From NCBI GenBank assembly GCA_001598975.1, contig BBXU01003057.1:1-64000 (forward strand): a DNA stretch of 64,000 bases, in the 5' to 3' direction. The DNA comes from Parachlorella kessleri (taxonomy: Eukaryota; Chlorophyta; Trebouxiophyceae; Chlorellales; Chlorellaceae). Shown in pieces: positions 32,456 to 64,000 of this stretch (within the stretch, counting starts at the first letter, position 1; each line of letters starts with the position of its first letter). The position numbers and the translations under genes are program-made. The notes under the pieces were generated by a model, which searched no databases, was not told where the DNA came from, and saw only the letters and a list, made by a program, of their open reading frames with translations.

Positions 32456-32480
32456 TTAATCCTCCAAGGCTAGCAGAAGC
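32256..32480. repeat. 66-bp tandem repeat, 3 full units plus a partial one reaching into a coding exon
   Basis: Units at 32256-32319, 32320-32385, 32386-32451 and a partial unit from 32452. Each begins GAGGTCA-like and contains [18 protein letters not shown] and CAGCTGCGGCCCAG-like blocks. The partial unit includes the stop codon and last codons of paralogue A. One degenerate unit sits at the equivalent place beside paralogue B (about 41880-41930). Confidence 0.85.
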
Positions 32481-35400
32481 TCACGCACTGCAAAGTTGGG
32501 GCGCACCATTCCAGAAGCCATAGCCCGCCCTGTGACTGGGGACCGTGAGCTGCCCCTCTGCAGCCAGGCTGCCAGCGCCTGCCGCTCGTACGTGTACCCA
32601 TCAGCGGCTATGACTGGGTCTGTCAGGCGCTGCCCCGTCAGGGCGCACACCAGCACTGCTGGCAAGGTGGGCGACGCCACAGCGCTCTCCTGCCGTGCAG
32701 CACCTACTGTGCTGCTGGAGCCGCTTCCGAGGCCAGCTGCCGTAGCCCTGGCTTCAGTGACTGCCGCTGCAGGTGGCACAGGGTATCCTACTGGCGGCTC
32801 TACCTGTTGGCTGTGCTTGCCAAGGGTGATGCCGGGCAGGAGCAGCTCCAGCAAGGCCTGCAGCAGCCAGAGGGCAGACCTACTCACGTCAACTGCATAG
32901 TCCTCAGCAATGAAAGGGGCATGCACGTCAGGGCCCACCAGCATTGTGCAAAGCGCACAAAGACGAGCTGTGCCTTCTAATGTACAAAAGCAGCTCACAT
33001 ATCCTCCTTGGCTACATGTCGATAGCCTCCGAGCCGGCCCAATGTCACCTGGCGCTGCCAAGAAGGGCATGCAGCAATGTCCAAGGCCATCAAGTACTCC
33101 ATGTCCTGCCTACCGACCTTGTGCTCTGCCTCCTGCTCGTCAGCTCCTGACGCTGATGGTGCCCCGCCTCCTGGTGGCACAGGAAGGTGTTGCGGAGGCC
33201 TAGCTGCAGCCCCAAGTTGCTCTTGCGGTGGTGGTGCTGCTGCAGGGCTTGATGGCAACGCCACTGCACCTGCCCGCCGTGTCTGCTGCCGTGCGGGAGT
33301 AGCAGGGGCGGGAACAGCAGGCATAGCAGGGCTCGTTGCGATGGCAGCGGTGCGGGTGTTGGCGGTCGATAACTGCTTACTGCCACCCGACGTAGCGGGC
33401 AGAGCAGGGAAGGAGCCTCCCCCTGTCTGCTGCAAGCCAGTTGACGCAGCACCTGCTGCTTCGTTGAGTGCCTCCCGCTGCTGCTGCTTCTTCTTCTTCA
33501 GAGGCTTCTTCAGTGTGAGGCTGCGGCCACCAGACATCCTCGCGCCTGCTTGCCTTACCGCGCCATCCTCAGCTTCCTGCTGCTCCGCTGCTACATCCTG
33601 CAAGCCCGCGCAGAAGTCTTCTTTGGCCCGTTTGACACAGCCGCTGTGTTCTGTAGGTGCAGCTGTTGCTGGCAACATTGGACTTGAGGGCTCACCAGCA
33701 GCGCCCATCGCCCATGGCTTGCTGCCCTGCAGAGTAACCGCTGGAGCCTCGGCGTGTTGTTGGCTGCCCTGCCCTGCCTCCTGCTTGGCGCGCTGCTTGC
33801 CTGCCTTCTGCCGCTGGCGCTTGGCCGCCTTGGCTGCTGCCTTGCTGTGTTCGGCCTCCTCTTCCGCCAGTAGCGCGGCAGCAGCAGCCTACAGCAGGCC
33901 AGGGTGAATGGAAACCCCACCTCTTCCCCGCCTTGCTATGCCAACTTGCAGCACCTGCAAACGTTCTGTCACAGGGTGACAACCCCGACCCAGGCACTTA
34001 GCCTCATCTGAGTATTTGCAATGGGGAGGCGTCTCCAATTCCCCATGCCGAGCCAGGTGACAATCTCAAATCACATCCTCACCTCAGCCCGCTGCGCTGA
34101 AGGCCCCCTGCCTCCGTTTCGTTGCAGCAGATCATGTGCCCATGAGAGGAACCGCGTGAGAAAATGTTCCGCCGCCTGCAGAACAATAACAGTCACGCTT
34201 TTAAATTACTCAGATGCCCTTTCACTCGATTTCCAAACCAACAGGCTGCACATCAACTCCTGGTCCACCACTGGAGCCGCCTCCGGAGGGAGGCTCTGCG
34301 CCCACACAGCCAGTGTGGCGGTGTTCTCGAACCCCAGCTAGACAAGCCTGAGGCTGTGGACAAAGCCTGCGATAACCTCAAGCACTTGCCGGCGCGTATG
34401 CGACGCATCAACACGGCTCTTGCTTACTTTGCAGTTGGGGTGAGGGCCGCTGAGGGCCAGGGCTGCTCCCGCGGCAGCCTCCTCCAGCTGGCCATCGTCA
34501 ACCACCTTCAGGGCCGCCCTTTGCCCACCAGCTCCGGCCTGCAAGGGTGCAGTTTAAGGCGATACCATACCACAGCTGCCTTAGGTCAGCATGAGGCACA
34601 TTTGTAGTGATCATTCACCAAAGGAGCACGACCAGCACTGAGGCTTGGAGTGTAGCAGCGGCCAGATCCTAGTCATTAGGAAATCTTCAAGGAGGCTTCT
34701 CGAAGTTTCCTTGGGAGCAAAAGCAGGGTCCAGGCAGGGCAGTGTAAGTCATCATGCGCTATGCTGACCCTGGCTGCAAGAAGGCGGTCATGGAACACCA
34801 GCCAACAGAAGGCATTATAGCTTTTACAAGTAAAGTAGCACATGCGCACCAGGCGGTAAACTTGTGGAAGCTTGAATTGGTTTGTGTGCAGTGCCTTACA
34901 CAATCCATGAAAGGTGCCCAGTGCTCTGCATATTGACAGTCGTACGCACCTGCTTCAATCCCAGAAGCAGCAAGCTCGTATTGAGGATGAGAGCACCGTA
35001 CTTTGCCATGTCATTCAGGACAGCCGCCTGGGGCGAACTGCCATATGCATGGACCCGCCGCGACGACCGTGCAGCCTGTGCCAGCTCCTTGACGTGGGTG
35101 AGTGCAGCTGTAAGTGCTGTAGCGGCTTTCACATGGACCCTGTCTTGAAGCAGCTGCATTTGGCACGCTGCTCCGCCCCTGTGCTGGACAAGGAATGCAT
35201 GACTCACTCTCAGGCGTGGGTCCAGCTTTCATGCTCCTGCGCAACTTCCAGGAGCAAACAGGCATCATCGTCCGCACAGGCCGCAAAGGTGCCACCACTT
35301 CCGGCTAGGGGCTGCACACCGTGCCAACGACACAATGCAGAAGCTGAGCAGGGGGACATGACGAGCCACCTACAACCATTAGGCAGATCACCACGCAAGG

Positions 35401-38400
35401 GCTTATCAATTGCTCGGCCGGCACTTACCGCAATGCTTCTGCAAGGTTAGTGAATGCCACAGATTGAGCCAGCACGATTGCATCGCTGGTAGAGGCCTCC
35501 GCCAAGGATAGCATTTGGCTGTAAAGTTGGGGGTATGTGATTAGCGAGATCTCGCTCCGCCCTTTCTCCAGACTGAGCAATACTTGGGCGCAGAACACTA
35601 CCGCATGGCTGAGGCTGAGGCTTGAGGCGTACTGCAGGCACACAAGAGCTCATTGCTTCCTGCGCTGCTCGCAAGTTGCCGCAGCCTCCGTGCCACCTTG
35701 CTCACCCCCATGCGGAAGTTGCTCTCACAATGGCAGCAACCATGACGCCCCACATGTGTCCAACACCAAATGCGCGGCCCCAGCAGCGCCCACCCCAGCA
35801 AACCTGTATGCCAAGCAACGCACCTTGTCACGCAGGCGGCCCGCTCCACTCTCATCTACGAAGTCGGATCTTGCAGCCTGCTGTTCAGGAGCCCTTAAGG
35901 AGCTTTCCACCCCTGGACCAGGATCCCCGAAGCCGGCCTCCCGGCGTGGCTGCCGCAAGTGCTTCCCATGTTCCTTGCCTCCAGGCTGCTCTGGCGCGCC
36001 GCTGGAGGAATGCATTATGCGTGCAAACTGTTCCAGCTCCCCCAGAGTGGACAGGCTGGCCAGCTGCCTCTTGGCATCTAACACTGCGCAGCACAGTGCC
36101 ATGGCAAGGGTATGAGAGCTGCTGTATGCACCATAATCTGGCGCTCCCGTTTATATTTTGGACAAACCAACTACCAAAGCACGCAACACACAGATCTCAT
36201 AAGCTGTGCACTGGCTTGCCGAAGTGCCATGCTAAATTTAGCTTGGTGCTGCATGCAACAGGGAGGCACCACACAGGCAGCAAGAACCTGAGGCAAAAAA
36301 TGGCTTGCCTCACTCTGTTGCATGGCCTGGCCGGCCAGCAGTCCTTGACATTGTTAGGACTGCATCCCCATGGAAGTCCACAAAACTAAGCTGCCCAGTT
36401 CGCGGTACTCTGACTGTTCCAGCATTTGCACAAAACTCAAGGCAAACCTCAGTACTTGCACAAAGCCCCCTCACCTGCCTCGCCTCGCATCCAAACTTGG
36501 CCTACCACGGAGCGTGCGTGGGTGGCCACGGCACGAAACAACTCTGGCAGCCCGCCGGATCGGACGTTGGCCTGCAGTACAGGCAAACACAAACAACCCT
36601 ACTCGCCGGATCCCATGTCTATCCATCTTCCCCCTGACCATGCATGCATGCCTCTCACCAGCGCCTGCCATGCACGCGCGCAACTACAAACCTACTTGCA
36701 GTTGGGTGCGGCTGCCAAGGCCATTGCGACCCCTGCAACGCCTTCTGTATTCCCCTACCCTTTGCTTTGCAAATCGATTGAGCTGGCATCTGCCACACTG
36801 CTTTCTGACCCCTTCTTTTCAAGTGCAATACATCTATCCTAAATGTTTTTTTCAAATGCCTTCCGACTGAAGCACAGGCCGCAGCAATCCTCCCGCCACC
36901 ACACCTCCGCTCGGGTCCTGACTTCCGGCGGCGCGTCGCAGCTCCCAGGCCTTCTAGGGTCCCATCGTGTGGCCTGGAGCAGGGTCTTAATGCCGCCTGC
37001 CCTCAGGAACTCCTCCCTGCCTGGCTCGCTCTTACACACTGCCAGGTCCAGCACTGCCAAGCACGCGCACAGAAGGTGCCACGAGCCATCGTAGGCGCTG
37101 CGGGCAGAGCAGAAGTGCAGTGCAAGTTCTTAAGGGAGCATATTGGAGAGTTTGTGGTGGCAGTACTACTCGAAGGCTACAGTAGAGGTGGGAAGGGGCT
37201 GAAGGGGCAGCCTGCGCTGCTCCCATGGGACTGACAGCGGTTACAGCTTGACCAAATCGAAAGGCCCAGTAGGCCAACCAACCGCCCAGTAAACAATGCC
37301 TCAAGCCTCGCCCATACCGTAGGCAAGAAAGTTGGCGCGTACCACTAAGTGTCTGATGGTTCGGGGTTGCGGATGAGCCCAAACTAGCTTTGCACGGCTT
37401 TGGAAGCACACAGAAGTGGCAGGCTACTACCCCTCCCACACCCAAATTGGTATACTCTAAATCCCCCGCCCCCCACCCTCACCCCCCACCCCTCTATGCC
37501 TCACTTGTCCACATATGGTTCAGCAAGGTGGCGAAGCGGCAGGTTCTGTATAATTTCCAGCAGCTGCCGGCAGCCACCATCGGAAGTCAAGGCATCCATG
37601 GCTTCCTGCAAAGCAAAGAAAACAGCGTGCACGCTTCTTTGCTGACCAGTAGGAGTCTTATACACAAAGTAGACCCAATCTTCATGAATGCTTCTGCACA
37701 GCGACTGAGCGGGACACGTCTGGGAAAGTTGAACAGCTGGTGACAGCTGGATAACGGCCATACACCCAGCGTGGTGCGAGGCGAACCAGCAACAGTTTTA
37801 GAGTAGGCAGCAGCGATGGAAGGAAGTGCAATAATCCTCCCAAAGAGCAAGCCATGGCATACCCAGTCCAACATCCTGATCGCTACAGCACCCCTCCCTT
37901 GCACGCCTCACTTCAACCCAGTGTTGCTGCTATGCGTACCCAGTGACACCAAAACTCAACCCCAAACACCTCCCCACGCGCACATGCAGTTCGTATGGGT
38001 GCACTGCCTGCCTGCTGCACGTGGCAGCTTCTCACCTTGTCACTCTCCACGGCCGCAATCAGGCAATCAGCAGCCAGGCACACGCAGCCCCCAGAGCCAG
38101 CCAAAACGTCCCTGAACTTGCCACCAAATGAAATTCCCACCAGCAGCACTGCCAGCATGACATTTATTCCTGCAGAACCGGGTTAGCCGGGGTGAGGCTG
38201 AGTCCCAGGATGGCTGACCACTGGCAGCCCATGGAGGGGCATGCCATAGAGCAGGTGCGAGCCTGGAGGGGCCGAGAGCACCAGTGGCCTGACATGACTT
38301 TGTAAGATGCGCCAGCATTCCTCAATTGTGCAGGGATGCATGTGACAGGTAGGCATCCTGGGGGTTCTTGTGCTGGTCGGCATTAGAGGGGCATGAGGCG

Positions 38401-41400
38401 GGCCGGGGGTAGCAGGGCCCGAGGCAAAGGGGTGCCTTTGATTTCCCATGTTGACTGACTGGGGGTTACCCAAAGCACAGCATGGCATTCCTAGTACAGT
38501 GCAGCCCCCTGCGTGCCCACTATGCAGTGGCAAGCCCCTTGTACAGCGTAGTGGGGCACACAAACCCGCTGGGGCCCCCAGCCCGACAGCTCCTGAGAGA
38601 CTTAAGCAAAGATCACTGTCAAGCGCAGGGGCAGAGGCGTAGGTAACTGAGTTGCATGCAGGTGCCCCACCTCACCTTGCCCCTGAACAAACGCCTCCAG
38701 CTGCATGCCATTCTTGAGGAAGATATCCAGGCTCGTCAGCAGCCCTCCGAGGGCCTCCAACAGCTGGGGTATTCCTACCAGCCACACAGCAGTGACTTTT
38801 GTGAGGGGCCCTGGAAAGGGTGGCTGGCTACCCATGCTTGTGCTCCCGTCACCCTGCAAGGTATGGGATATGGCCAATGCGGGTGTATTGATCTAAACTG
38901 ATGAGTCTGTACCACTACGGACCAAGGGCAGTCATTTAAAGCTGGCCATAAAAGCATCACATGTCAGCACACATGTTGGAAACTAGGACATTCCAGAGGC
39001 TAGCACACAGCATATGAGGTATTTGGGGCGCACCCTACGTAAACAAATTGCCATGTGGTTTGTGGCCCTTGGGGCAATTCCATGGCTTAAAGTGCAACAA
39101 TTTTGTGTTGGAGTGACAGAAGAGCCACATGCCAATGCCTCGAGCACTACAGGTAGCACCCCATCTCAGCAACCCTTTCATAAGCAGCCCCTGAGGAGGG
39201 CCCCAGCCTCGTGCATGAGCCCTTGAGCTCCTCATTGACAAGCCTTGTTTAGCCCTTCACTCAGCTTTGTGCAGCTTCACCACACATCCTCTCTGTTCGA
39301 TGTACCTGCCACCGTAATAAGCACAACAGCAAAATCACACTGCACAGTGGCCCCGCTGCACTCACCTGATGGGCCGTGGCAGCTGCGGCGTCAGCAGCTA
39401 CCACTGTGAGTAGGCTTGCTTCACCATCTCCGGCTTCTGGTGCCTTCTTGATGAAGAGAAACCTGCGACATGACCAGGCTGGTGGTAGGCGGCACAACAA
39501 CGCAGAATGCTTGTCATTAACCACAGCCCAACCCTGGCTGCGACGACCAACTGTCTGATACAAACAGACTGTTATTATGGGGCCCACAACTATCCAGTTA
39601 TAAAGTCCATCAGCTGTGAAGTGCACAAGGCCAAGCCCTTTGAGTACATGACAAAGCCTCCCTTTCACCCTTTAGCATACCACGATACCGCTCGGCTTCC
39701 CACCTGATGAGTCGTTGCACCAGCTGGACGTTACACACCATGAAATGCCACTTGTCCAGCAGGTTTAGCAGCTCCCCCGACGGGGCCCCCAGGGACCGCT
39801 CCCTGGCACTGAGCCACTCTGTCAGTTGATGCAGCCTGCCGGCACTCAGCAGGAACATAAGCTCCACCTCCGGACTGGCAGAGTTGCTGGCGGCTGCGGA
39901 GGGCGGGAACGTACAGGGTGGCCAGGAGACCTAATGTGAGCAGAGTAGGAGTGAACCGCATGCCAACACCAAAAGCCCACGCGGCTTCCAGCCTTGCGTG
40001 TCTCTTCCTTTGCACCCGCTGGCCCGTGGCCTTGGACGGCCATGAAGCTTAGAATGTGCACAGCAGGCACTCTGCAGGAGTCAAGCACAGCCAAAGGCTT
40101 GTCTGCTCTGCGGCTGGAGAGCACAGAGCACAACTTACCAAGGGCTACTGTGGCTGCCTGGAACGCTGTGGTTATGCTGGCATCCACCCCTGGTGTGGCC
40201 AGCGCGAGCGCAATCGTTGCTCTAGCGGTGCAAAGGCAGCTGTGCCAGCACCAATCTTGGCTTGCTTCCTCAAGAAGGCAGTTCGCGGGGGGGCGGCGCG
40301 AAGTCGTCGTGCAGTCCGAGACAGCTGAGAGGAAGTCTGCGCCAGTAGGAGGGCCCAGCAACTGCTTTTCCTACTACCGTTAGAACGTTAGAAGCACTCT
40401 TCCTTTCCCTACAATGGCACAGAAGCATGTGTGCGATCGAGCGCCCAAGCAGGGGCCGTGCAAGCTCCATCCCGCACAACAATAGTAATAAAGGGGGGTT
40501 AGCCATGGACGACATTCATTTCGCCACAAGGCCTTGGAGATGACGTCCCAAACTGACGCATTTGGGACACATAAGGCGACCTGTTCAGTTGGGTTGCCTG
40601 ATTAAGAGATAAAATACACTCACAGTGCCTCACCCGCTTGTGAGTCATGGTCTGCCTTCCAGGCTGCTTGTCGGCCATCAATGCTTACTAAGAGGTCCAC
40701 CCCACACCAAAGTGCAGGGCTGCTGACCTCGGCACACAAGGCTGGCTCCCGATCAGCAGCCCGCACCAGCCCGGCAAGCACCCGCAGCACACAGCTCCTG
40801 CAAGCTGCTGCGTCTTTTCCCTCCTCAGAGAGTCTGCAGCACAAAAGAATGGCAGGAGCTTTGACCCTGCTGATGTTTAGGATCTTGACAGTTGCTCTGC
40901 AAGGGCGAGCGACGGGACAGTCTTCCCACACAGGCGTGCTAGGCCGTGCCGCTGGGCCGCCCATTTAAGCTCAGCCACCGATAGAAGCAAGAAGCAAGGT
41001 CTGCACCACCAGGTTACTGTCTTGCGTGGGTAGGGAATGCACGGCCTTGACATACCGCTTCATGCCAAGTACAACAAAACTTGGCAGGGCCTCCACTCCG
41101 TAGCCGCAGCGATCATCCTCACGCAGGCGTGACAGCAGCTTGGCAAAAAGGGTTGCGCATCGGCGTGCGTAGAACACAGCCTCTTCAGGGGTGGCGGTAG
41201 ACAGCTTGGAGAGGTAGTCCGCAGCGAGGTCCGCTAGCACTCTACGCTCTGCCAAGTGGGAGGCATTCTCAGCCGTGTCCAGGACCCTAGCCCCTGCAAC
41301 ACGCACTTTCTGACGTGTCTAGGTGTAGCCCAGGGATGACCGACCACACTTGGTGATCATGGGGTGTCCCTTGGACGAGGTGATGGGCTGTCACACGCAC

Positions 41401-41437
41401 CTGGACACAGTGCTTTGAAGACTTCCTCCACCTTCAT
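32456..41437 (-). CDS. paralogue A: large ARM-like helical protein with C-terminal U-box (predicted E3 ubiquitin ligase)
   Basis: Eighteen exons: 41401-41437, 41056-41293, 40634-40833, 40139-40336, 39704-39893, 39366-39462, 38676-38763, 38036-38169, 37505-37605, 36905-37097, 36475-36571, 35824-36083, 35429-35631, 34950-35178, 34428-34538, 34083-34175, 33118-33888, 32456-32902; about 1,228 aa. Start MKVEEVFKALCPG matches paralogue B. The body is all-helical with ARM-like segments (REEFLRAGGIKTLLQATRW; DALTSDGGCRQLLEIIQ). Exon 17 is Lys/Ala/Gln-rich with KRQRQK and KKPLKKKK. The final 66 residues are a U-box: LVCALTGQRLTDPVIAADG, then YTYERQALAAWL and SPVTGRAM, with the DP, DG, YE and W positions that contact E2 enzymes. 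Predicted to ubiquitinate partners recruited by the body. In plant PUB-ARM proteins the U-box precedes the repeats; here it follows. The last acceptor (32902) is my best fit, not certain. Confidence 0.82.
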
Positions 41438-41930
41438 GCGGCCTAAGAAGCAGATCTGGCTGCCCTTGGTGTTGTGTGGGTTAAAATTCCATCTGTGGCG
41501 CCCAGTGACTAATCGTGACAACCTCGGACACCTGAACATGTATCGTTGGAACGTAGATGCATCACCATAACGTGGGTGGGTAAGCGACATAGGTGAGGCA
41601 CTGTCGAGACGGACATCAGCATATACTCACCGTGCGACGACAATGTTCTCAGCCAGCGAATAAAGGACTCAGAAGGGCAAGGCACCACCAGGTTCTGTAT
41701 ATTGAGTGACCTTGTTGTTATTTACACTGATAACTAGTGCGGACTGCGTATAACGGACCTGGGTGTGGCATACTGACATGGCTGGGAAAATCCCCAACCG
41801 ACACTTAACATCGCAGGTAAGGTCGCTGACAAGTCCGGTGGCGTCCCCTTCGACTTCAACTTTGCTCAATCTTGCCCTCCACTCTCTAGTGGTTGGCTGT
41901 ATATAACGCGGTCCAGCTTTGAAGTCAAAG
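41438..41930. other. spacer between paralogues A and B
   Basis: Promoter side of A and 3' flank of B, both minus strand. Contains the conserved block at 41497-41523 shared with the B promoter, and a minus-strand TGTAA (TTACA at 41722-41726) 205 bp past the B stop. A remnant unit of the 66-bp repeat abuts the B stop codon. Confidence 0.6.
41497..41523 (-). promoter_or_regulatory. conserved upstream block of paralogue A
   Basis: The 27-bp stretch (plus strand GGCGCCCAGTGACTAATC, then TGACAACC after one base) recurs nearly unchanged at 51094-51120 upstream of paralogue B. Both lie 60-70 bp before the ATG. The TGACTAAT core resembles a bZIP site. Conservation may be functional or a trace of recent duplication. 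Confidence 0.5.
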
Positions 41931-44900
41931 CTATGAGGCTGGCAGAAGCTCGCGCACTGCAAAGTTGGGGCGCACCAGTCCAGGAGCCATAGCCCGCCCT
42001 GTGACCGGAGACTGTGAGCTGCCCCTCTGCAGCCAAGCTGCCAGCGCCTGCCGCTCGTACGTGTATCCATCAGCGGCTATGACTGGGTCTGTCAGGCGCT
42101 TGCCCGTCAGGGCGCACACCAGCACTGCTGCCAAGGTGGCCGGTGGCATAGCACTCCCATGCTGCCCAGCACCTGCCGTGCTGCTTCCCAGGCCAGCCGG
42201 CGCGGTCATGGGACTTGTGACTGCTGCCGCAGGTGGTGCAGGGTTACTCACGGGCGGCTCCGGCTGTTGGCTGTGCTTGCCAAGGGTGATGCCGGGCAGG
42301 AGCAGCTCCAGCAAGGCCTGCAGCAGCCAGAGGGCAGACTTACATGAAGCCATCGGCAGTTGAAGCGGCGTGTGAACCAGGGCCCAGCAGGGTTGTGCAC
42401 ACACTAACAAGACGAGCTTTGCCTTTTCTGTAAGTAAGCAGCTCGCGTGTCCTCCCTGGCTGCACATCTGTCCCCTCCATGCTGGCACGATGTCATCTTG
42501 CGTTGTCACACAGCCGCGCAGCTATGTCTACGGCGTGCTTGTGAAAGATGGCCATCCTGACCTGGTGCTCTGCCTCATGCTCGTCAGCTGCTGGGGCTGT
42601 TGACACCTCTGCAACCGCTGGCACAGGTAGGTCCTGCGGAGGTGCAGCCGCCGTGGCACCTAGCTCCAGTGGTGGTGCTGCTGCAGGAGTGGACGGCAGG
42701 GCTGCTATACCAGCCCGCCGAGTCTCAAGACCCTGCTGGCGTGCGGGAGTACCAGGGGCGTGCACAGCAGGCACAGCAGCGAGGGGGGGAATGGCGGGCG
42801 ATGCCTGCTTACTGCTGCCCGATGCAGCGAGCAGAGGAGGCAGGGAGCCTCCCCCTGACAACTGCGAGCCACTTGACGCAACGGCTGTTGCGTCGTTGAG
42901 GGGCCGTTCCAGCATGTCCCGCTGCTGGTGCTCCAGCTTCTGTAATGGCTTCTTCACTTTGGCTTTGCGACTAGGCTGTCCTTGTGCCGTTTTGATGGTT
43001 GCATCCAGGCGTTGCCAAGGCCCTGCTGCCTACATGCACTGCCCTGTCGTCCCCAGCCTCCTGCAGCACAGTGTGATCCGGTGCTGTAACGTGTGAAGTA
43101 GCACTGAAAACTCCATGGCCGTGGGAGACGGGGCCGCTGCACTCTGTGAAGGCAGCTGTTGTTAGCAGCATTGGAGACGTGGGCTCCACAACAGCACCCA
43201 CCGCCCGTGGTTCCCCACTGCTGCCCTGCTGAGCAGCTGCTGCTGGCGCAGTGGCTTGCTGCTGGCTGACTTGCAACGCCTGCTGCTTGGCCTGCTCCAT
43301 GGCTGCCTTCTGCCGCTGGCGCTTGGCGGCCTTGGCTGCTGCCTTGCGCTGCGCGGCCTCCTCTTCCGCCAAAAGCGAGGCTGCAGCAGCCTACAGGCCA
43401 GGGCGATGGAACCCCAGTTCATTCCCGGCCTAGCTTTGTCGACTTGGAGCCGCGGGAAGGGACCTGGCAGAGGGGTGACAACCCCACCAGTACAGGGCCT
43501 CTCCACAGTTCGCAGGTGGCGGAGGTGCTTCAAATTTCATGACTGGAGACAACTCAGAATCACCCTTACCTCGGCTTGCAGCCCCGGACGCATCATGCCT
43601 CCGTTCTGCCGCAGCAGCTCATTAGCCCATGAGAGGAACTCCTTGAGATAAAGACCCGCCGCCTGCAAAGCCATGGCCATCACAATTTCAACACCTATAT
43701 GCCTGGTTGCAAAAGTCTACAAGGCTGCAAAACTATTATGTTGAAGACTTGGGCCCCCTCTGGAAGGGAGCTCACGCACACACGGCCAGTGTCATGGTGT
43801 CCCACTAGCCAGCCAGTTAGGTGACCCCAAGGCTGTGGGCAAAGCCTGTGCCTAGCTTACGGCTCTGACTGGCGCTCATGCGAGGGATTATGAGGGCCCT
43901 TGCTGACCTCGCATGTGGGGTCAGGGCTGCTGAAGGCAAAGGCGGCTCCCACGGCAGCCTTCTCAAGCTGACCATCTTTCACCACCTCCTGCGCGGCAGT
44001 CTGCCCCGCGTCTCCTGCCTGCAGGTGTGCAGGCCATATCACTGCTGCCAATGGCCAGCGTCTAGCCACACATGACTGGTAACTAGGGCCACCAAAGGAG
44101 CATCGCCAAGCACTGAGGTGTCAGGTACAACGGCCACCCGATCCTGGCCGGTACAGATTCCTTTGGAGAAGACTCCATGCGAGCGTCACAGGCAGCGGAA
44201 GCAGGGTCCACCCAAGACAAACGTGAACCATCATGCCCTATGCTGACCCTGACTGCAAGAAGGCAGTCGTGGAACACTAGCCAAAAAGGTCATATCCGCC
44301 TTTCGGGGCGAAGTTAGCACAAGTGCACACCCAGGTGATGATGTTATGGGTGCTTATCTTTGGTAGTGGTTGCCAACAGTGCTGATAGAGGAGAGTTAGG
44401 TGTCGTGCTCTGGGGCTTGCCTGATGCATGATCCAGTCACTTCTGTTACCTTGCCCTGCACAATCCATTGGATGGTGCCTAGTGCTTTCCATACTGACAG
44501 TAGCACGCACCTGCCTCAGCCCATCAAGCAATAAGGTCACATTGAGGATGAGGGCGCAGTGCTGCGCTATGGCATCCACGACAGGCCCCTGGGCCAGCTT
44601 GCCGCGAGCGGGGGCCCGCCGTGACAATTGTGCCGCCCGTGCCTGCTCCTTGATGTGGGTGAGCGCAGATGTAACTACCGTGCCAGCTGTCAGGTGGACC
44701 CTGTCTTGAAGCAGCAGCCGTTGGCACGCTGCTTTGCCCCTGCGGTGGAGAAGGCATGCATGACTCCCCATCAGGTGTGGGTACACATACAGTATCTGAA
44801 CACTCAAGTGCAGAAACAGGCATTGCTGTCCGCAAGGGCCAGCCATGTGACATGCCACGCCACGGGCTAAGACCGGCTCAGGGTGGCAGCACAGCACGCA

Positions 44901-50900: not shown

Positions 50901-51027
50901 ATTTCTGACGCATTAAAGTATAGCCCAAGGGTGACCGATCAAACATCATGATCATGGGGCTCCCTTGGACGAGGTGAGGGGCTGCCACACCTGGGCACAG
51001 TGCTCTGAAAACTTCCTCCACCGACAT
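41931..51027 (-). CDS. paralogue B: U-box-bearing sister of A, with an interrupted exon 17
   Basis: Exons: 50991-51027, 50654-50888, 50228-50427, 49730-49942, 49207-49396, 48873-48986 (6a), 48608-48722 (6b), 48124-48211, 47480-47616, 46946-47046, 46387-46579, 46055-46151, 45412-45662, 45025-45227, 44511-44739, 43908-44018, 43570-43662, 42971-43390 plus 42562-42970, 41931-42338. All but exon 17 join in phase. Start MSVEEVFRALCPG. The body matches A throughout (RARAGGLQDILRAVATRALS; REEFLRAGGIKALLRASRW). The last exon is an intact U-box (LVCALTGKRLTDPVIAADG; YERQALAAWL; SPVTGRAM) ending RELLPAS. Exon 17 meets an in-frame TAG at 42971-42973 and the homologous frame resumes one base out, so B either has an extra intron there or has lost its U-box. 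Exon 6 is duplicated. The tandem copy adjacent to A is evidently a segmental duplication of about 9 kb. Confidence 0.75.
42962..42985 (-). other. frame interruption in exon 17 of paralogue B
   Basis: Upstream frame ends at TAG 42971-42973; downstream, the frame homologous to A (KKPLQKLEHQQ, then Ala/Pro-rich sequence to HEAEHQ at 42562) starts from 42970 offset by one base. CCTAG here could serve as a splice acceptor, but I found no convincing donor in the required phase. Confidence 0.55.
48608..48986 (-). repeat. duplicated exon 6 (6a and 6b) in paralogue B
   Basis: Exon 6a (48873-48986, 114 nt) begins RFVFVGKGSEPPAAAGEGEG; exon 6b (48608-48722, 115 nt) begins RFAFVRKTSETPAAGEGEGS. A, C and D each have one exon 6. 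The duplicated unit includes upstream intron sequence: CTGGCTGCNAAGACCA-type blocks sit 60-72 bp before the exon at 49047-49062, 48789-48804 and, in A, 39534-39549. Unit length is about 258 bp. Confidence 0.8.
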
Positions 51028-51316
51028 GCTGCATATTTGAGCTTGAACTGGGCTGGCCTTGGTGTTCTGCATGGCCATGAACTTGACAAGGTTGGCGCCC
51101 AGTGACTAATCCTGACCACCTTGATCCCTCCGAGGCAATACTCATTGGTCTGGACAGGCCTCTCGGTGGCAACCCGCAATTTCAGCTGTGTGATCTACAA
51201 GGTATCACAAGGTGGCATTGCCTGGCTTTCAGCTGTTTGCGCCAAGGCCGCTCCACGCCTGCCTTGGACTTGAGCCTCCAACGGGGGCCAGCACTCTTGT
51301 GTCCCCCAGGGACAGA
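51028..51316. promoter_or_regulatory. divergent promoter region between paralogues B and C
   Basis: 289 bp between the ATG of B (minus) and that of C (+). Contains the conserved 27-bp block at 51094-51120 shared with the A promoter. Gene orientation flips here, so both family branches may share control elements. Confidence 0.6.
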
Positions 51317-54300: not shown

Positions 54301-57300
54301 TGGCCATGTGCTATAAACAGGCACCTAGGCGCAACAGGCTTCAAGCAAAGCTTTTCCTTGCTTTCTGTCCTGTGGAGGCTCTGCGTGGTCCATAGTCGTT
54401 CCCTTGGCATCCGGCTGCCTGCTTGCAGGCATCCAGGCATTGATGGGCCTGTTTGAAGTGTGGGCACTAGAGTATGGCAGGCTGGGGTACATGCAGCACC
54501 TAGTACAGGAGTCAATGCTCACTGCGGCTGAGTGTTTGGTGGCCGTGCTTGGGAGCCAGCATCAAGAGGTGGGCGTAGCACTGTACGGTTGATGCGCGTT
54601 GGCTAATGTCTGCAAGGGAGGTGCGAGTGCACCATCGGTGGTTGGGGCGCGAAGGTCCGTGGACAGCAAAAACAATAAATGACAGAGAGTCGTCAAGCCG
54701 AAGCTTGTCTGCGCTGAAGGGGCATCATGCTGAGAGGGGCGCTACGATTTGGAAGGGGCTAGTTCCACTGCATTCGGTTCCTGCTGAAGCAAGCTTGGCC
54801 TCCAAGGTCTGTGCAGTGATGTATCCAGCCGTGTTCGTCATTTTTACTTATGCTGTACAGGAGGCCCAAGATGAGTTCCTCGCCGCCTCTGGCATCCAGA
54901 TATTCCTGAGTGTGGTGGAATTGCTGCCACTTCGTCTAGTGGTGAAGGCAGCTTTTGTCAGGTGGGCGCCTTGCTGTGCCCAGCAGCCGCTAGCAACTGC
55001 TTGCTGCGCCAGCTGAGCATGCTGCACGTCCTGGCTGCACTTGCAGCTCTCTGTGGCTGTGGTGTTTCGTGGCAGCACATATGACCACCAGCTGAGATGC
55101 CCACTGGCTGTGCGAGCCCTGGTGTCAAGGATACATGCCCCACGATGCAGCCATTATGCACACGACCAAACATGCCCCGGTGTAGTAAGCTTTTCTCGCC
55201 CAAGAGTGCTTGGCACCTGCGTTTGATGCCCCACTTGCCCTGTAGGCAGTTGCGTTGGTCCCCAGGAGTGTCAGCAGTCTAGCTTGCAATCTTTTTTTTC
55301 TGGCTTATACCTGTTGAGCACTCACCGGCCTGCACCGCCTTTCTGCAGTGGCAAGCACGAGCTCTGGCAGCTGCAGTGCGCCTCCTTGAGAGTCCTGGAG
55401 TTAGCGTGCGAGAAATGCTCGGCCAGCAGGGAGCTGTTTATTGCTGAGGGGGGCATTGCAGCTGTGATCCAGGCCATGCGCTGGTACGCCGACACGCCTG
55501 GCAGCTCCACAACGCCACTTGTCGTAGTTGAGGCTGAGGCACAGGTTAGTATCGAGGCCGTGTTCAATTAGTCAAGCCCCTTGACTGTGTGACAGTGCAG
55601 AAGGCACATCATCCACCCTGCACTGCTCGCAAGCTTGCCACTGGCCCGCTGGCATAGCACATGCCTCACCACAGATGGCGTGGGGTGGTTTGCACACACG
55701 CACGCGCCACAGGCCGAGATTGCATTGCTAAGCAGCATAACTCACCATTGGTGGTCTTGCATGCGACTTCTTCCTTGTTTACTTGTGGGCAAGGTTGCCA
55801 TGCACCCTGTGCTATTCTTGTACCCATGCAGACCCCTTTGCAACGGCAGAGGTTGGCGGACGTGCTTTGCTCCCTGGTCACCCATGCATGCGCTGCTGTC
55901 GTCCGAGTATGCATCGATGAACTGAGTAAGGAGGGATAGCCCAGTGACTTGAGGATCAGGCATAAGTCCTGGCCAGCACATGGATATTGGCTGCGGAGCA
56001 ACTTGTGTAGGGCCAGACCCAATACCATATGCAGCGGTGTTGCATACATTGAAATGCCAGGCCTCCTGGCTTGAGTGCCCCCATGGCAGTCCCGCATTGG
56101 CGGCTGCTCACCTCGGATTGAGGTGTGTGACACAGTGACGGCTGTGAGATGTGTTGTGCAGACGACCCCTCCCACGGGAGTGATTCTCTGTGCCTTCATG
56201 CACTGCTTAAGGCCACCTCAGTTGAAGAGATGGAGCAGTTTCTCAGCTTGCAATCGGCTGGTAGGGCTGAGCATGCAGACATAGCGGAGGCGAGCTTCAT
56301 GGATAAGGTGAGCACACACACCGGACAGCGTGCTTACCTGCCAGATTTTGGCTGTTAAAAGTGTAATCCTTCCTGCTGGCTTGTCGAGGACATGGCTTAC
56401 GTAATTTTCCTCGTCAGGGCGTTGCTCAGCAAGTCCCAGGACTGCCCTTTCCAGGCTTGCTGAGATGTTTTTTTTAACACCAACAGATCCAAACGCAGGC
56501 GACCCAAGTTGCAGTTTGGGGCTTGTGTTTCATAGAGCCTCGCCTCCTTTGAGAAGGATGGATGACTTCAGGGGTTGCAGTTGTCCTAGAGCTCTCCTCA
56601 CTCTAATAGAAGCCCTGCTGGTTTTTGCCCCGCCCTCAGGCTTACACCCTTTTGCCCTGACCACCTGCTGCAGATAGCCCCAGACTTCCCCCTCCCAGTC
56701 TCGGTAATTGTCTGCAGCCACATGCTCCTTACAGAGCAGCCGCAGCATCAGGTGCTTTTCATGCAGCAGCGATACCCTCTCCTGTACCAAACGCACCTGC
56801 AGCTAATCAGCTCCAGCGAGGATGGGGGAAATCATCAGGCCTTGGCCAAGTCGTTGGCTTTCGCTACCCTTGCCATCCTGATGAGGTGAGTGAGCATGCA
56901 GCATGGCCCCTGGATATTTCACCACTGTCAGAAGGAGGTACTTACGAGCCTGGTTTTTGGTGCATGAGCCGGGCAGAAAGGCGTTTCTCCACCGTAATAA
57001 ACCGCTCTGTCAGCGTGAGCAACAGGGAGCAGTGAACCCCAGCTGGACCTATACCTGCAGGTGCTTCTCATCACCCACCTCCTGGCCAGCAGGAGTGTTT
57101 GAGACCACTTGCAGTCGCAAACTGTTCACGACCGAGTGCTATGAGCCGGCTGCAGGGAGCGCACGGACTGGCGGCGGCAGCTACTCACCGACAAGGTGCA
57201 TGTGGCTGCGGGTGCCGCCCTAACCGCGGCGCTGACCACCTTAAGGCTGGAAACCCTGGCGGGCCGCAAGGCGCGGTTGCACAGGCTACAAGCGCGCAGC

Positions 57301-59584
57301 CGATGCGGCGCCGGTGGCGGCAGCAAGTGCGGTTGCGGGCAGCCGGGGTGCCGGGACGCCCGCATTGGTTGGGGTGACGGCGAAGCGGATGCTGAAGGGG
57401 CGAGGGATGGTGCCGAGAGGGCTGGGCGAATCAATAAAGCCACTATGATGATAGTGAGGACCACCAATCTACTAGCTGTGCTACGAGAGGTGGGCAGCTC
57501 CTGCATTTTTGAAGCCTGTGTTCACGGTAGGAGGAACAGCGTGGAAGAATTCCAGCAGAGGTGCAATTGAATGGAGTTGTTTGTGTTGCTCAGCATGCAC
57601 TACCTTGCAACCTGCTTAACTATATGCTGTATACGTAGCAGCAGTAACGGCAGCTGTATACATAGCAGCAGCTGACTACGCAGCAGCTCCCTCATTGCTT
57701 TAACCAGTGGCGTGGCCTCTGCAGGGGCAAGACAGCGGAGCAGCAGTGCTGGAGGTCTTAAACGACGGCGGGAAGCTGGCTGCAGCCGCAGCTGCACTTG
57801 AGGGCCCTTCAATGGCCAGCATCTCTGCTGCCGTCAAGGTCAGTGCGGGCACACTTAATGCTTGCAGGACCGCTTTAGAAGCAGAGGAGCTTGCGTGCAT
57901 GTATTTTCTACAATGTTGTGACCCTACTGGGCTGGCAGTTGGCTAGTGGCACTGACTGTGGTCGCCTGGCAGGCAACATCGCAGGTCAGGGCATTCTCTG
58001 CATACCGGAAATCACTTACAAGGCCTACACTCCCCACCGGAGTCCGGAACTATCGTGACATACATAAGCAATACTACTAGCTAGCTCAAGCTTCCTTCCC
58101 TGCAGACATCGCACGCGAGCCTGAAAGACTTCCTTGCCTGGGGGAAGCAGCAGCAACAGCAGCAGCAGCCACAAACTCCGACAGGCGAACAGGCTTCAAA
58201 ACAGCAGGCTGAGGTGAGCAGTTCTTCAGTCCACATGCCGCTTGTGCCTTCTAGATTGCACTAGACAAGCCCAGCTTGACAGTGTAGGAGCAACCTTTTG
58301 TTGCTGTGGCAAAGCGTGCATGTCATGCCACATGTGGGGCGGGTGTGAAGGCCTACTGGCTGCGACTTTTGTCCCTATAGCGGTGGAACACATAATCTTT
58401 GCAATCACAGGCGCTTGAAAACAGATGACCCTTTCTGCATGGCCAAGTCGCATGTGTTTTGGCCCCTTCATTACCACCACTTCCTATTTACCACCACTGA
58501 CAGAGAACCTATGTGGGGTTTGGCTTGCGCTCAAGAGCGTAGTCCATTGACTGCATGGCAGACTTTGACTTGGTCGGTGGTGCCTCCCACTGTACTGAAG
58601 CTCCTACTCGTTAGCTTTTGTAGGCTGCGGCGGCACTACTGCTTGCGGAGGAGGAGACTGAACAGCGCAAGACTTCGGCCAAGGCAGGCAAGCGCCAGAG
58701 GCAAAAGGCAGCCAAACAGCAACCTCGCCTGCTCCGAGACCAAACGGGTTTGGGCAGCAGGGATGTGCTCGCATTGCCGGCTGGCAGCAAGCAGGCATTG
58801 CCCACCACCCTCCCAGCCCTGGCGGCTATCCTTGGCCCTACTGTTGCCTCAGGGCCTGAACACCAAAGCACAATCGTGGCCCCCCCGCTCACGTCGCGCA
58901 ATCCGGAGGCAGCAGCGGCCCGGCATGTGACACCTGTCATTGAACCGTCCCTGTCGGAAGCAAAGTCGCCAGAAGCAGAAGCAGCAGCAGTACCAGCAAG
59001 AGGCGAAGCAGCAGCCCAGGCGGAGCGTAGCCAAGCTGAGTCACTGGCTGAGGCTTCAGAAACACCAGCAGTGGACATGCAGGAGCTGGATATCCAGGTC
59101 GGTCATGGGAGCAGCTGCATCTTTGCTGCTACCCTTCGCCCCCACCCCATGACAAGCACATCCTCCAGTGCATGCTTGTTCACAATCGGTGGCCCTGTGG
59201 GTGGCTTTGGTCTAAAATCTGGGTGGTGCTGGGGCTTGTACCTTGCGCCGCCATAGTCGTGCTCGGCCAGTTTAGTTACTTGCGCATGCACTGCACGTCC
59301 GGTGTAGAGCATTAGTTTGCCAAAGTGTAGATCCAGAGCATGTGAATTTTCTGTATCTGATTAGGCTGGAAACTGCCAGAGATGTTGATCTGCAGGCATC
59401 AGCGAGTGGCGCTCCGGCCCCAGTGGACAAGCACTGCGGCTGCTGCGGCTCCACCCCAGGACCTGGCGTCAAGCTGAAGCTCTGCTCGGGCTGTCGTAGG
59501 GTGCGCTTCTGTGGGGCAGCCTGCCAAAAGGCTGCGTGGCCTGGCCACAAGGCAGCGTGTAGGGCAAGCCAGCACAATGGCTGA
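51317..59584 (+). CDS. paralogue C: same helical body with C-terminal MYND zinc finger
   Basis: Eighteen exons: 51317-51362, 51599-51857, 52047-52252, 52612-52842, 53164-53353, 53841-53904, 54082-54175, 54429-54568, 54861-54961, 55349-55544, 55832-55925, 56162-56307, 56674-56885, 57156-57489, 57725-57838, 58106-58213, 58624-59097, 59396-59584; 1,065 aa in phase throughout. Start MDVSELYRSYRKLLPG parallels exon 1 of A and B. Matching blocks include RAEALPSFIWLGLIR, VGFPAVWCGVDLIKN, NMQLDTFLHKG and LFIAEGGIAAVIQAMRW. Exon 14 carries a Gly/Cys-rich insertion (GGGSKCGCGQPGC). Exon 17 begins LLLAEEETEQRK, as in A and B. The last exon is a MYND finger, C-x2-C-x12-C-x2-C-x5-C-x3-C-x7-H-x3-C (Cys1017 to Cys1058), a zinc-binding protein-interaction module, replacing the U-box. 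Partner and pathway unknown. Confidence 0.85.
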
Positions 59585-59812
59585 GGGAGGTGAAGCGTAT
59601 GCATTCTTGGCAGCTTGCAGTAGGCATGGCAGAACGTAAGTCGACGATAGGGAGCAATAGCGGTCGACAGCATGTCATTAGACTACTAACACTTTCATAA
59701 GGGGTTTGGAAGGCATTGTGGTAAGGTGTATCAGTGTGATGGGGCAGCCACTGGTTGCCCTAGTCATAGCTAGCCAGACTTGAGCAGGGCTTTCACGCGT
59801 TGAGGTTACAAG
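59585..59812. other. spacer between paralogues C and D
   Basis: 228 bp holding the 3' end of C and the presumed promoter of D. No TGTAA and no copy of the 27-bp block of A and B were seen. Confidence 0.45.
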
Positions 59813-62800
59813 ATGCTCACGTACTGTAGTGTGATATTGGAAGAGGTATTTAGCCCCTTGGCCCAGCTTGGACTTGTACAGCGATACTTTAAGACCGTAA
59901 GTGCACCTTTCAGCCTCTTTTCCGTCAGCAGCTGACTATCTCACCAACATGCATGGTTGCAACATAAGTCTGTCGTGGGTTGTGTGAGGGGTTTGAGCGT
60001 GCTATAAAGCTACCATCAAGACTTGCGCCTTCTGACTCATCATGATCAGATGTAAAACGTAATAGGGCAATCAACATGTTCAAAACAATCATGCCAACAT
60101 AAGTTGCGGCAGCCTCGCCTACTGGTACAAGCACGTTAGTATGAAAGGTTCCAAGGTTTTCGAAACACTCTTCCCAGGTGGGGGTTTGCACTTTTGTGGC
60201 AAATGCACATGTCGATCGTGGGGAACTGTGGTTTGAAGTGTCAAAACCGCTGGTGCAGGGGGCCAACTCCTGGACACGACCACCGATGATGGCTCAGCCT
60301 TGGCTGATCGAAAGTCGCTCGCTGTTCTGTTAGAGGGCTTGTCTCGCAAGCTTTGTCAAGACAGCCCAGAAGGGGCGGCAGCTCACGCAACGGAGTGTGC
60401 AGGCTTGCTTCCCTGGCTTGAAAAGCACCTGGAGAAGGGAGCTGACCTCATGTCCAGCTTCATCTTGCAAGGCGTGACACGGTGCGCAAGGGCAGCTGCT
60501 CAGTGGTTCACTTGGTGCTGAAGCGTCCAAGCGCGTATCATGTGCCTGTTATAGCCGGCTTGATGCACTCATAAGCGAATTCAGGATTGCATCTTGCTTG
60601 CTGTGGCAGAGGTTTTGCGCGGTAGTCCTGGGACAAATTCCGTCTTTGCTGCGCAGGTTGTCTGAGGAAGGCCACGATTGGTCAGCATGCATCCGCAGTG
60701 CCCTGCGGGTGTTGGGCAGGCTAGTGAGGGCAGCAGGGGCCAACCCAGAGCTGCGGGCTGAGGTTGGCCGCCCTGCTGTCTGGTGTGGGGTGAAGCTCAT
60801 CGGGAGAATGCGCAGCCAGGCGCCAGAGTCGCCGCCAGATGTGGAAAGTCTTAGTGGTGAGCACGGGCTCCATTGAAGCCCACTATGTGCCCTGCTTGGG
60901 CTCCCACAGAGGGAGTCTATGTTGCGTGCAAACAAGGGCCGGAACGTTGCAATCAAATTGTTTGGGTCCCAAGGCATGGTTGACAGCTTGGCTGCCTTAC
61001 TTGGCTGCATAATGTGAGCCCCACTTGCCGCGGCCGCTGGCTAGCAGCTGACAAGGCCTCTGGGGGGCAGAGAGGAACTTGCGGGTGTCTTCAACCTGCA
61101 CTCACATTCCAAAAAGGCACGCTTCAACTGTCTTACAAACATTGTTGGCGCTGCAGACTTCACGCTGCCCATCCATGAAGCTACCAGGGCTTGGATGCCC
61201 CCCTCGTCCTACTGTGAGCCTGCAAAAGCCGGCCACGCTTGGTTGTGGCACACCTGCCTGGTCGTGGCGCGCGCAAAGCTGGCGTTCGAGCCACTGGCAC
61301 GGACTCAGCTGCCCGCCGCGCTGCCAGCGCTTCTGGCCGCTTTCCAGGTCTTGAGAGATGGTGAAGGTGAGCAGGGCAGGGCTGGGACACTGTCAAGCGC
61401 TGGGCGGGAGAGCAAGGCCTCACCTGCAGCTCCGCTCAGTGCATGCGCGAGCTCCAGGCGAGGCCTTGCTTTCGCTGCAGAGCACATGCTGTGAGTGCAC
61501 GGCGCCATACCTGCACACATAGTGTTATAAGTGAAAATTGTAAACATTGCCCAGCATCATGCTATAAGGGTGCCTCTGCTCAATCTGGCGTTGGACTAGT
61601 TTGTTTTGCCCGTACCTTACGAGTTGCAAGTTGACAAGGGCCGGCCGTCATGTTACCAAGATGCGGGGAGCGTGACAATGAACACTCAGTCAGTTCTCTT
61701 CAGTATGCTGCATGCTGCGCCCTCAAGTAGTACTACCACAGGCCTTCATGCTCTTGACCTGCACCTCACAATGCCGTGCAGACGCCTGCTGTGCGGCCAG
61801 TGTTGAGGTGGAGCTCCCTTTTCTGGTGGATGCCGCCCGCCTTTTTGTGTTCGTCGCCCAGATCGTAAGCGAGGAACTCTTACCCAAGCGGCAGATAAAA
61901 GAGCTCCTTGGCAAGCTGGACACCCATGAAGCCGGGCGGTCCAACATCTTCTATGCGCAGCAGCTGCTAAGGTGTGGGAATGCCAAGGCAGCATGTTCTG
62001 GCTGGATCGGCCCAAGCTCACATGGCAGGCCCAGGTTGTATAGGGTTTGGGATGTTTGGATTGGCAACAATTCGACTTTCTGCATCTGTCCCACAAGCTG
62101 CACTACATGGGATGAGGCTAGTTGTCGCTAAAGAAGGCCAGCGCACAAAGATTGCCTCAGAGGCGCAGCTTCAAGCATGGTTCAACAGAGCGTGTTACTA
62201 CTGTTCTGGGGGCCTTCTGTGGTGCACTTCTTGAACCATTGTGGCGTCCTGCTATCGTAAGGCTGGAGCGATGCCTGCTGCTGCTGCTGCACTCCTGCCC
62301 ACGCTGCTGGATGCGTGCTCACCTCTGGTGCAGATTTGCCTTTGTTAGAGGCCCTGCGGGTGCCGACACTGTCGGCCAGGAGGGAGAAGCATCAGATGGT
62401 GGAGCGTTGGGAGGGAAAGGGAAGGAGAACGACCAAGTGGAGGATGACGACGCAAGCACCAGTTGTGAGGTTCTTGAACCGCTGCCTGCTGATGCCATTC
62501 CCTTTGCAAAGGCGCATCAGGTGGGTGTCGCCATGCCCTACTGTCTGTCCTGGGTATGCTCCAAATAATTGCTGCCTCGTGTCTGGGGTATGCGCAATCT
62601 TGTGTGGATTGCGCCGCTTGCACACAGCAGCGCCTGGCTTCTTGCTGCTTCCACGCATGTGTGGGGCCTCCCCTCTGGCAACCCGTTTGGGCCCACCAGC
62701 AATTTCTAAGACTGCTGGGGCAGCAGGCAGCAGGCAAGACTCCTGCCATTGTGATGGTTGCCATGTTGTGAGAAAGTGCCCAAACCTGGGCGCAGGCTGA

Positions 62801-64000
62801 AGCTCTGGCGGCACTGTGGGGATTGCTGCGCAGCCTACGGCTGTTCTTGTCCGGCGGCATGCACGTATGGTTGCTAGCACAGGAGCCAGGTATGCGAGGT
62901 TTGCAATTCCTACATTTGACATGACAGACAGCTGTCGTGCCAGGGGCCACAGGTTGCCATATTGGAGACCCCAGTGTGTGTTGTCCATGTCGGAGAGCGG
63001 GACCAGGTCAGCAGCATGTCACCAGCGGCGGCGGCAGCATGTGCCGCAGCGCGGCTCAACAGAAGGCTTGCAACTGGCCCTTTGGTATCTACCGTCCTGG
63101 TTTCGAGAGCATGCATGGCTGGGAGAGGCGCCAGCGTGCGCATGCGGAGGCATCCTCCTCCATTCTGCTGCCAGATTCCAGCAATGCTTCATTCCTGGAA
63201 CAGGAGGAGTTACTCTGACCTAGTTACTTCCCCCGGCTTGCTGCGCAGGCGTTGGTGTGCTGGTGACTCTCTTTGATTACTACTACGATGTGCAGCACTC
63301 ATTTGGGGCGCTGGAGGAGTCCGTGCACGGCTGCCTCCTGGCAGCAGCGGACTGCCTGCTTGTGTTGCTTGAAAGCTCGTACGGGATGGTGAGGGGCAAA
63401 ATCTAGCAGTAGGAAACCCATGCACCAAAGCCCCAGCGACTACATCACCTTGGATATCATTCCTTTCATACCCGTTAGTGCACAGTTCTTGCCTCAACTG
63501 CCAGTTGGTGCCACAGGGTGAACCTAGGCCTGAGGCCCTCGCCATCCCCTCAGTCGTCGTTCCAGGCTGCTGCATGTTTGGTTTGCAGGTTGCCGCAGCC
63601 TGCTTGCCTGCCATGTTCTTTGCTTTTCATGGGTAGCGCCTACCCTAATCATGCACGCTCTGTCATGCTGTGCAGGCTGCCCAGGAGGCCTTCGCCACCA
63701 CATGTGGCTATGAGCGGCTGCTGGACGTGGTGGACTCGCTGTGGCTCAACCGCATGGCTAAGGATTATGTAAACAGGTGGATTTTGCGTGGGCCATGCTC
63801 TGTGGTGGTCCGCGGGCGCGAGGGAGGATGTGGAGGTGGCCTTGCGTTCCTTGCTTTCTTGCCTTGATGAGAGCCAGGTCGAGCGTCCAGGGTGCCCCAG
63901 TGTCACCTGCTGACCTTGGTGATATGGCCCTGCTTGAGGCAGCTCATCTTGCTCTTGCTTAGGGTCCGTCACAATACACGAGGTCCTTGCCAGCCTGACT
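59813..64000 (+). CDS. paralogue D: fourth family member, truncated by the window edge
   Basis: Supported exons: 60259-60481, 60657-60856, 61157-61366, 61782-61971, 62334-62520, 62796-62889, 63249-63388, 63676-63776; the rest lies beyond 64000. They match family exons 2-9 in order and phase; exon 3 is 200 nt as in A and B, exon 5 is 190 nt and exon 9 is 101 nt as in all copies. Typical blocks are RLSEEGHDWSACIRSALRVL, GRPAVWCGVKLIGRM, SVEVELPFLVDAARLF and AFATTCGYERLLDVV. Exon 6 is enlarged with an acidic stretch (ENDQVEDDDASTS). A candidate first exon, 59813-59896 (LEEVFSPLAQ), ends in phase 0 whereas exon 2 needs phase 1, so the true 5' end is unresolved. Whether it ends in a U-box or a MYND finger cannot be seen. 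Confidence 0.78.

Follow-up and report, generated by a model that had tools for sequence, protein, structure and literature searches.

The closest described counterparts of the gene family reported here are ubiquitin ligases (E3), namely those of the plant PUB type, CHIP and the TRIM proteins. Chlamydomonas reinhardtii is reported to have 30 U-box genes (PMC8875423, PMC4378952) and to lack PUB proteins with ARM repeats (ARM-PUBs) (PMC4378952). CHIP places tetratricopeptide repeats (TPR) before a C-terminal U-box (PMC4017836). In the TRIM ligases, C-terminal exons have been lost or exchanged, including the replacement of the B30.2 domain by cyclophilin A (CypA) (PMC3137616), and in streptophytes the MCA/MCAfunc domain is found with U-box-Arm or, elsewhere, with PLAC8 (PMC8049495). 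The joining of exons from adjacent genes is described as the likely main route of domain gain in animals (PMC2926785), and MYND-type zinc fingers are listed among the strongly expanded orthogroups of Edaphochlamys debaryana (PMC8226300) and among the species- or genus-specific families of a Scenedesmus (PMC7955037). Here we report on a stretch of Parachlorella kessleri contig BBXU01003057.1 that holds a tandem and inverted array of paralogues, in which one gene, C, appears to end in a MYND finger and its sisters end in a U-box. We consider it probable that C, a paralogue of the U-box type, had its last exon replaced once by a MYND exon, so that this scaffold probably does not ubiquitinate proteins any longer.

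The window covers bases 1 to 64,000 of this contig (C1543 in our numbering; 82,601 bases), which belongs to a genome assembly of 50.9 Mb in 1642 contigs. With 38 chlorophyll a/b-binding matches the genome is that of a photosynthetic eukaryote, most likely a green alga. Five paralogues lie on the contig, A and B on the minus strand and C, D and E on the plus strand, with the last exons of D and the whole of E beyond the window. An earlier note on this DNA had described an array of four genes of one family; the single family stands, and the number rises to five with E.

32456..41437, minus strand: gene A, 18 exons, U-box tail, 1213-residue model without internal stop
41931..51027, minus strand: gene B, U-box tail, 1239-residue model, exon 17 split by an extra short intron
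51317..59584, plus strand: gene C, 18 exons, MYND tail, 1065-residue model, boundaries set by hand
60141..68791, plus strand: gene D, in the window only 60141..64000, U-box tail
69447..77948, plus strand: gene E, outside the window, U-box tail

A second array with the same body is divided between contigs C916 (F1, which is cut, F2 and F3) and C917 (the tail G0, then G1 and G2). C916 ends in a simple repeat that F3 enters, and C917 starts with one in which G0 begins; F3 and G0 may therefore be parts of a single gene that the gap interrupts, and the two contigs are perhaps neighbours. A census of the genome by exon 3 returned these loci only, in 10 rows that correspond to nine bodies, G1 being in two pieces.

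Ten tails were seen: nine are U-box tails (A, B, D, E, F1, F2, G0, G1 and G2) and one, that of C, is a MYND tail. The tail of F3 stands outside this count because contig C916 ends before it.

32456..32857, minus strand: exon 18 of A, LLxLLLPGI linker and U-box; Pfam U-box E 1.4e-10; PDB matches to plant U-boxes and CHIP
41931..42317, minus strand: exon 18 of B, U-box, start set by hand; profile match at C1543:41949-42122
59396..59584, plus strand: exon 18 of C, MYND zinc finger and stop, 62 residues; Pfam zf-MYND E 8.9e-11
C1543:68396-68791, plus strand: exon 18 of D, U-box; Pfam E 1.5e-5, 25.5 bits against a cut-off of 21.4

A U-box end in A and B and a MYND end in C, at one phase-0 place, had been the central claim of the earlier note, and Pfam confirms both domains; the splice to the MYND exon is one that we infer. 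Exon 18 of B is 80% identical to that of A, the U-boxes of B and E exceed the Pfam cut-off in the genome profile search, and exon 18 of G2 has a Pfam U-box E value of 1.3e-11. The U-box of D, with the lowest Pfam score among A, D and G2, reaches 120.6 bits by comparison with a U-box-exon profile that leaves D out. In the PDB, the entry closest to the U-box of A is 7c96, followed by LubX and plant U-boxes (1t1h, U-box protein 12), with a weak match to the CHIP U-box. The positions that contact the ubiquitin-conjugating enzyme (E2) we take to be Ile/Leu, Trp and Pro; Leu, Trp and Pro are kept there in the alignments of A, B, E, F2, G0, G1 and G2. D has SHAMG in place of the SPVTG/SPATG of its sisters. 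Because its U-box is without their SP motif, ligase function has perhaps been lost more than once in the array, and D may represent a second loss.

The MYND finger of C scores 42.1 bits against a cut-off of 22.7 and has its eight Cys/His ligands complete, in the pattern C-C, C-C, C-C, H-C. Genome-wide, the U-box is matched 23 times (E<=0.001) and MYND 70 times (E<=0.01), and none of these 70 is a second MYND on C1543, C916 or C917. Pfam finds no U-box in the C model. A search for a U-box relic in 59050-60300, the 1.25 kb that span the joint, revealed no clear trace: the best match had 4.6 bits, with E 0.012 in that small set, and covered the linker part rather than the U-box part. AlphaFold models were too poor for use, with a mean predicted local distance difference test score (pLDDT) of 52 for the MYND exon (no alignment) and 43 for exon 18 of A (two sequences). 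Tandem arrays of MYND genes occur elsewhere in the genome (C1021, C573, C574, C1144 and C1146), where numerous MYND exons follow one another at spacings of often about 5 kb.

The link between the body of C and its MYND finger would run through exon 17 and the intron that follows it.

33118..33888, minus strand: exon 17 of A, charged stretch (AEEE...KRQRQK) with a low-complexity linker; 3' end placed by hand
58624..59097, plus strand: exon 17 of C, homologue of the U-box paralogues' exon 17; 3' end ...CAG/gtcggt, set by hand
59098..59395, plus strand: intron 17 of C, 298 nt, phase 0, acceptor gatctgcag; splice set by hand and deduced

The homology of exon 17 across the array, which the earlier note had recognised, is upheld by alignments of the C exon, each compared with 200 shuffles: z is 9.4 for A, 10.8 for D and 9.8 for G2, and is still 8.2 for G2 without the charged helix. 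The exon ends at a matching place in the eight final models, with CAG/gt common to most sisters; the ends in B, D, F2, G1 and G2 were picked by searches, and those in A, C and E were set by hand. A 1541-bp query around the junction found one copy of the joint, its matches being itself and four exon-17 matches. The donor at the place usual in the family, the phase 0 of the intron, a MYND frame free of methionine, the full set of zinc ligands and a MYND dN/dS of 0.18 make it very likely that exon 17 of C is spliced to the MYND exon.

The bodies of A and C are homologous (30% identity over 11 exons), the point on which the earlier note had staked its reading, and C is closer to G2 (47%). In a body tree of these 11 exons from nine genes, C groups with F2, F3, G1 and G2 (support 100/100) and is the sister of G2 (77/70). 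Trees that ally C with A/B or with D/E instead lose 92 log units and can be rejected, the approximately unbiased (AU) p being below 1e-70. More remote relatives form the H family, a tandem on the minus strand of contigs C1189, C1190 and C1191, whose U-box exons score 104 to 113 bits. A stretch like exon 17 precedes the H U-box in C1190 (profile E 0.008) and C1191 (E 0.0007); in C1189 it is recognised from its resemblance to C1191. The H bodies are remote homologues by hhalign, with P 1.3e-6 against exons 7-10 and 1.8e-5 against the whole body (reversed control 0.056; single pieces 0.0088, 0.41 and 0.02). In a tree rooted with H, from exons 7-10 only, C again stands beside G2 (72/59) inside F/G (97/61). 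At C785:26558-27010, at a contig end, lies a further U-box exon of this type with the same linker, and no body was recognised upstream. The tree of U-box exons is poorly resolved (E beside G2 at 62/50) and carries no weight for or against an ancestral U-box. Because all outgroups carry a U-box, this is the ancestral end, which MYND very likely replaced once, in C. The exchange of terminal exons on one scaffold proposed in the earlier note is retained; its two standing alternative ends give way to a U-box family with one gene swapped (nine tails against one among the 10).

Final models of eight genes (A, B, C, D, E, F2, G1 and G2) were made from conservation across the paralogues and splice sites, with several boundaries set by hand. 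Each has 18 exons with the phase string 0,1,2,1,1,2,0,1,0,2,0,1,0,2,0,0,0,0, with two kinds of exception: intron 16 is missing from the models of F2 and G1, and in that of B an additional intron divides exon 17. All eight have one stop, which is terminal. The shared order and phases are those of the earlier note, which had counted about 17 exons.

51317-51362, 51599-51857, 52047-52252, 52612-52842, 53164-53353, 53841-53904, 54082-54175, 54429-54568, 54861-54961, plus strand: exons 1-9 of C, model with hand-set boundaries
55349-55544, 55832-55925, 56162-56307, 56674-56885, 57156-57489, 57725-57838, 58106-58213, 58624-59097, 59396-59584, plus strand: exons 10-18 of C, model with hand-set boundaries

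The exon lengths given in the earlier note recur in the final models: exon 5 has 190 nt in seven of the eight (187 in E) and exon 9 has 101 nt in seven (98 in F2), A to D included in both, and exon 3 has 200 nt in A, B and D, with 206 in C and 194 in E. The phase-imposed search took its phase string from the hand model of C and favoured these lengths by a prior. Without the length prior it returned 190 nt for exon 5 in two of the eight (A and B) and 101 nt for exon 9 in four (B, D, E and G2), and the agreement in length depends in part on the priors. Independent of any prior is a CAG acceptor exactly 190 nt 5' of the exon-5 donor in all genes but E, and exactly 101 nt 5' of the exon-9 donor in all but F2 (seven of eight each, A to D among them); the earlier note, too, had read these lengths directly from the sequence. 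An unphased, prior-free run agrees with the final models at 71 of 135 acceptors and 88 of 135 donors. Exons from the phase-imposed search were replaced by hand in C (2, 4, 6, 8, 14, 17 and 18), in E (1, 6, 7 and others) and, for some exons, in A, B, D, F2, G1 and G2. The exon-3 model of G1 (C917:2175-2335) is unsafe because the homologous peptide is split over two frames, through a frameshift either in the gene copy or in the assembly, and exon 6 of G2 is provisional. A first gene-finder run over-predicted exons and was dropped.

GC-AG introns were deduced for intron 17 of E (CAG/gcaagt) and introns 14/15 of F2 and G1 (GAG/gcgagt). Intron 11 of B contains a short dispersed repeat (45854-45916), whose relatives lie on C785, on C1191 and, by way of C785, on C690. 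Elsewhere in the window lie the C-terminal part of a cyclase-associated protein (22749-23564, plus strand; CAP_C, E 4.2e-32) and part of an ABHD18-like hydrolase (7803-8450, minus strand; E 1.8e-16); Rfam and tRNA scans of the 64 kb gave no match.

Within the genome, the nearest relatives of the C finger are on contigs C1048 (69%, 54 residues), C384 (twice, 56% and 55%) and C1216 (50%). On C1048 the open frame that the MYND closes has 257 residues and includes an ARMET_C/SAP-like stretch; C384 has a similar layout, with a SAP-like match below the family cut-off. At the DNA level, C and C1048 are 76% identical over 158 bp, wholly within the MYND exon. In the comparison made for a MYND tree, for which eight of 12 other loci were dropped for departing from the sequence pattern, C and C1048 agree at 65% and C1048 and C384 at 54%, and the five-sequence tree does not resolve the node of C, C1048 and C384 (44). 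These SAP-like/MYND genes are the likely donor family. The C model has no SAP-like stretch, MYND being its sole Pfam domain above cut-off. When the 18 exon profiles were run against the 3.1 kb around the C1048 and C384 loci, the best E among the matches listed was 0.0049, from the exon 18 profile (11.5 bits) on the opposite strand of C1048 (minus), which we took as chance. Retroposition of the MYND exon is possible. The swap does not look recent, because synonymous divergence is about 1.2 between the MYND of C and that of C1048 and about 1.0 between the bodies of C and G2, rough values near saturation. The ratio of nonsynonymous to synonymous divergence (dN/dS; pairwise NG86, no significance test) is 0.18 for this MYND pair and 0.44 for the C and G2 bodies; the comparison pairs give 0.56 (A/B), 0.455 (D/E), 0.65 (F2/G1) and, for U-box exons, 0.53 and 0.63.

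The helical repeats that the earlier note saw in the body were not recovered, as no ARM or HEAT match appears in Pfam at E<=1 in the bodies of C, G2 and E, although remote repeats may be present. Pfam searches of C, and of G2 and E without their tails, gave no repeat family and, besides MYND in C, sub-threshold matches only. A body profile had a single match in the PDB, disregarded at E 0.27. Among 5.8 billion proteins, no relative of the body was found in the 7995 candidates scored in each case, for C alone or for a six-gene alignment, and none was found among the viral contigs of IMG/VR. Proteins with this body and a U-box at the C-terminus may form a family not yet described. The contrast drawn earlier with PUB-ARM proteins is weakened, since ARM repeats were not found and a C-terminal U-box, as in CHIP, is not unusual in itself.

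We propose an ancestor in which some 800 N-terminal residues (exons 1-16) made up the body, followed by a charged and low-complexity linker (exon 17) and, at the C-terminus, a U-box (exon 18); recombination in or near intron 17 would have brought in the MYND finger from the tail of a SAP-like/MYND gene. A U-box binds an E2 and thus makes a ligase, and MYND fingers bind short peptide motifs. The U-box paralogues would then be E3 ligases that choose substrates through the body, and C would retain partner binding, recruit MYND-ligand proteins in place of an E2, and so might protect or compete for the partners of its sisters. We put forward only tentatively that the scaffold of C has no ligase activity and serves to bind MYND partners or to compete with the sister proteins. 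Still more doubtful is that it has evolved into a counter-ligase, by which substrates of the sisters would be spared ubiquitination or passed to a MYND-bound (for example transcriptional) complex. In Arabidopsis, decoy ligases with a dominant-negative effect are an established tool (PMC6483598), so a natural decoy ligase is plausible.

Several points weigh against the replacement of a U-box by MYND in C and the role drawn from it. The joint of exon 17 to the MYND exon is deduced from sequence, with the MYND exon added by hand; the donor of C exon 17, gtcggt, is not strong (A has the identical one); and three model searches end C at 59257, in the frame that reads through from exon 17. The donor family is identified from about 55 residues, and the age of the swap is rough because no relatives of the body were found outside this genome. 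The ligase activity of the U-boxes, and partners common to C and its sisters, are predictions only. That exon 17 stays open past its donor to this stop, the end which those searches choose, is what one would expect if C were tail-less and the MYND exon were a relic or part of another transcript. Because the searches reward likeness to the paralogues they cannot favour MYND, so the 59257 end weighs little either way; among the automatic runs, the over-predicting first gene-finder alone used the 59396 acceptor. A MYND exon outside C is distinctly unlikely: the gap is only 298 nt, the open frame from MYND back to the preceding stop (59276-59584) contains no Met, the exon-17 ends match in eight models, the MYND dN/dS is low, and the modelled start of D lies about 560 bp further on. 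A misjoined tail might be suspected in an assembly of so many contigs that breaks at simple repeats, as at the end of C916 and the start of C917. Since MYND is flanked on both sides by family sequence, within 1 kb, such a chimera would need two false joins, and with the stretch found once we consider it highly improbable.

The exact sister of C bears on a different alternative, in which the ancestral end was MYND, or a U-box together with MYND, and the finger disappeared from the other copies. What speaks for it is that the sister position of G2 is only modestly supported. C as the sister of all F/G loses 7.2 log units (AU p 0.03, Shimodaira-Hasegawa p 0.36). It would require several independent losses, and C is nested among relatives that carry the U-box in nine tails and in the remote H family, with no MYND near any other copy; we give it very little credence. 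The swap may also be real with C a decaying or neutral copy that has none of the proposed role, and C does exist as one copy only. Its 18 open exons with splice sites, and dN/dS values below 1 (0.44 against G2, 0.18 for MYND), speak for a maintained gene and make decay unlikely. On balance we retain a single replacement of the U-box by MYND in C. As a natural experiment of one step, in which body, linker and intron place are kept while a presumed catalytic end becomes a protein-binding finger, the case lets one ask whether one exon can turn a ligase scaffold into a decoy or adaptor.

Compared with known systems, the array resembles the plant PUB ligases (U-box PF04564) in the closeness of the A U-box to plant U-boxes in the PDB, but has the U-box at the C-terminus and no ARM match in the body. 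It shares with CHIP/STUB1 (TPR, coiled coil, U-box) the order of an interaction part first and a U-box last; the array bodies differ in having no TPR match, in being much larger and in forming a tandem family. The MCA/MCAfunc domain likewise has alternative partners, but on another body and with PLAC8 rather than MYND. The SAP-like/MYND frames share the finger and, on C1048, end at nearly the same stop, but among the matches listed no array exon profile fits their surroundings better than the probable chance hit given above. A similar exchange is described for TRIM5-CypA and the zebrafish fintrim genes, in which the C-terminal domain of one member of a ligase family is replaced by another (PMC3137616). 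There the RING is kept and the C-terminal B30.2 changes, whereas in C the body is kept and the presumed catalytic end is replaced, which, if true, would be the inverse of TRIM-Cyp, with the effector exchanged rather than the target reader. Among the matches listed in the open-licence literature we found no report of an exchange between U-box and MYND. The type of event is known; what is new, within the literature searched, is the pair of ends, the direction, in which the catalytic end is lost, and the body that carries them.

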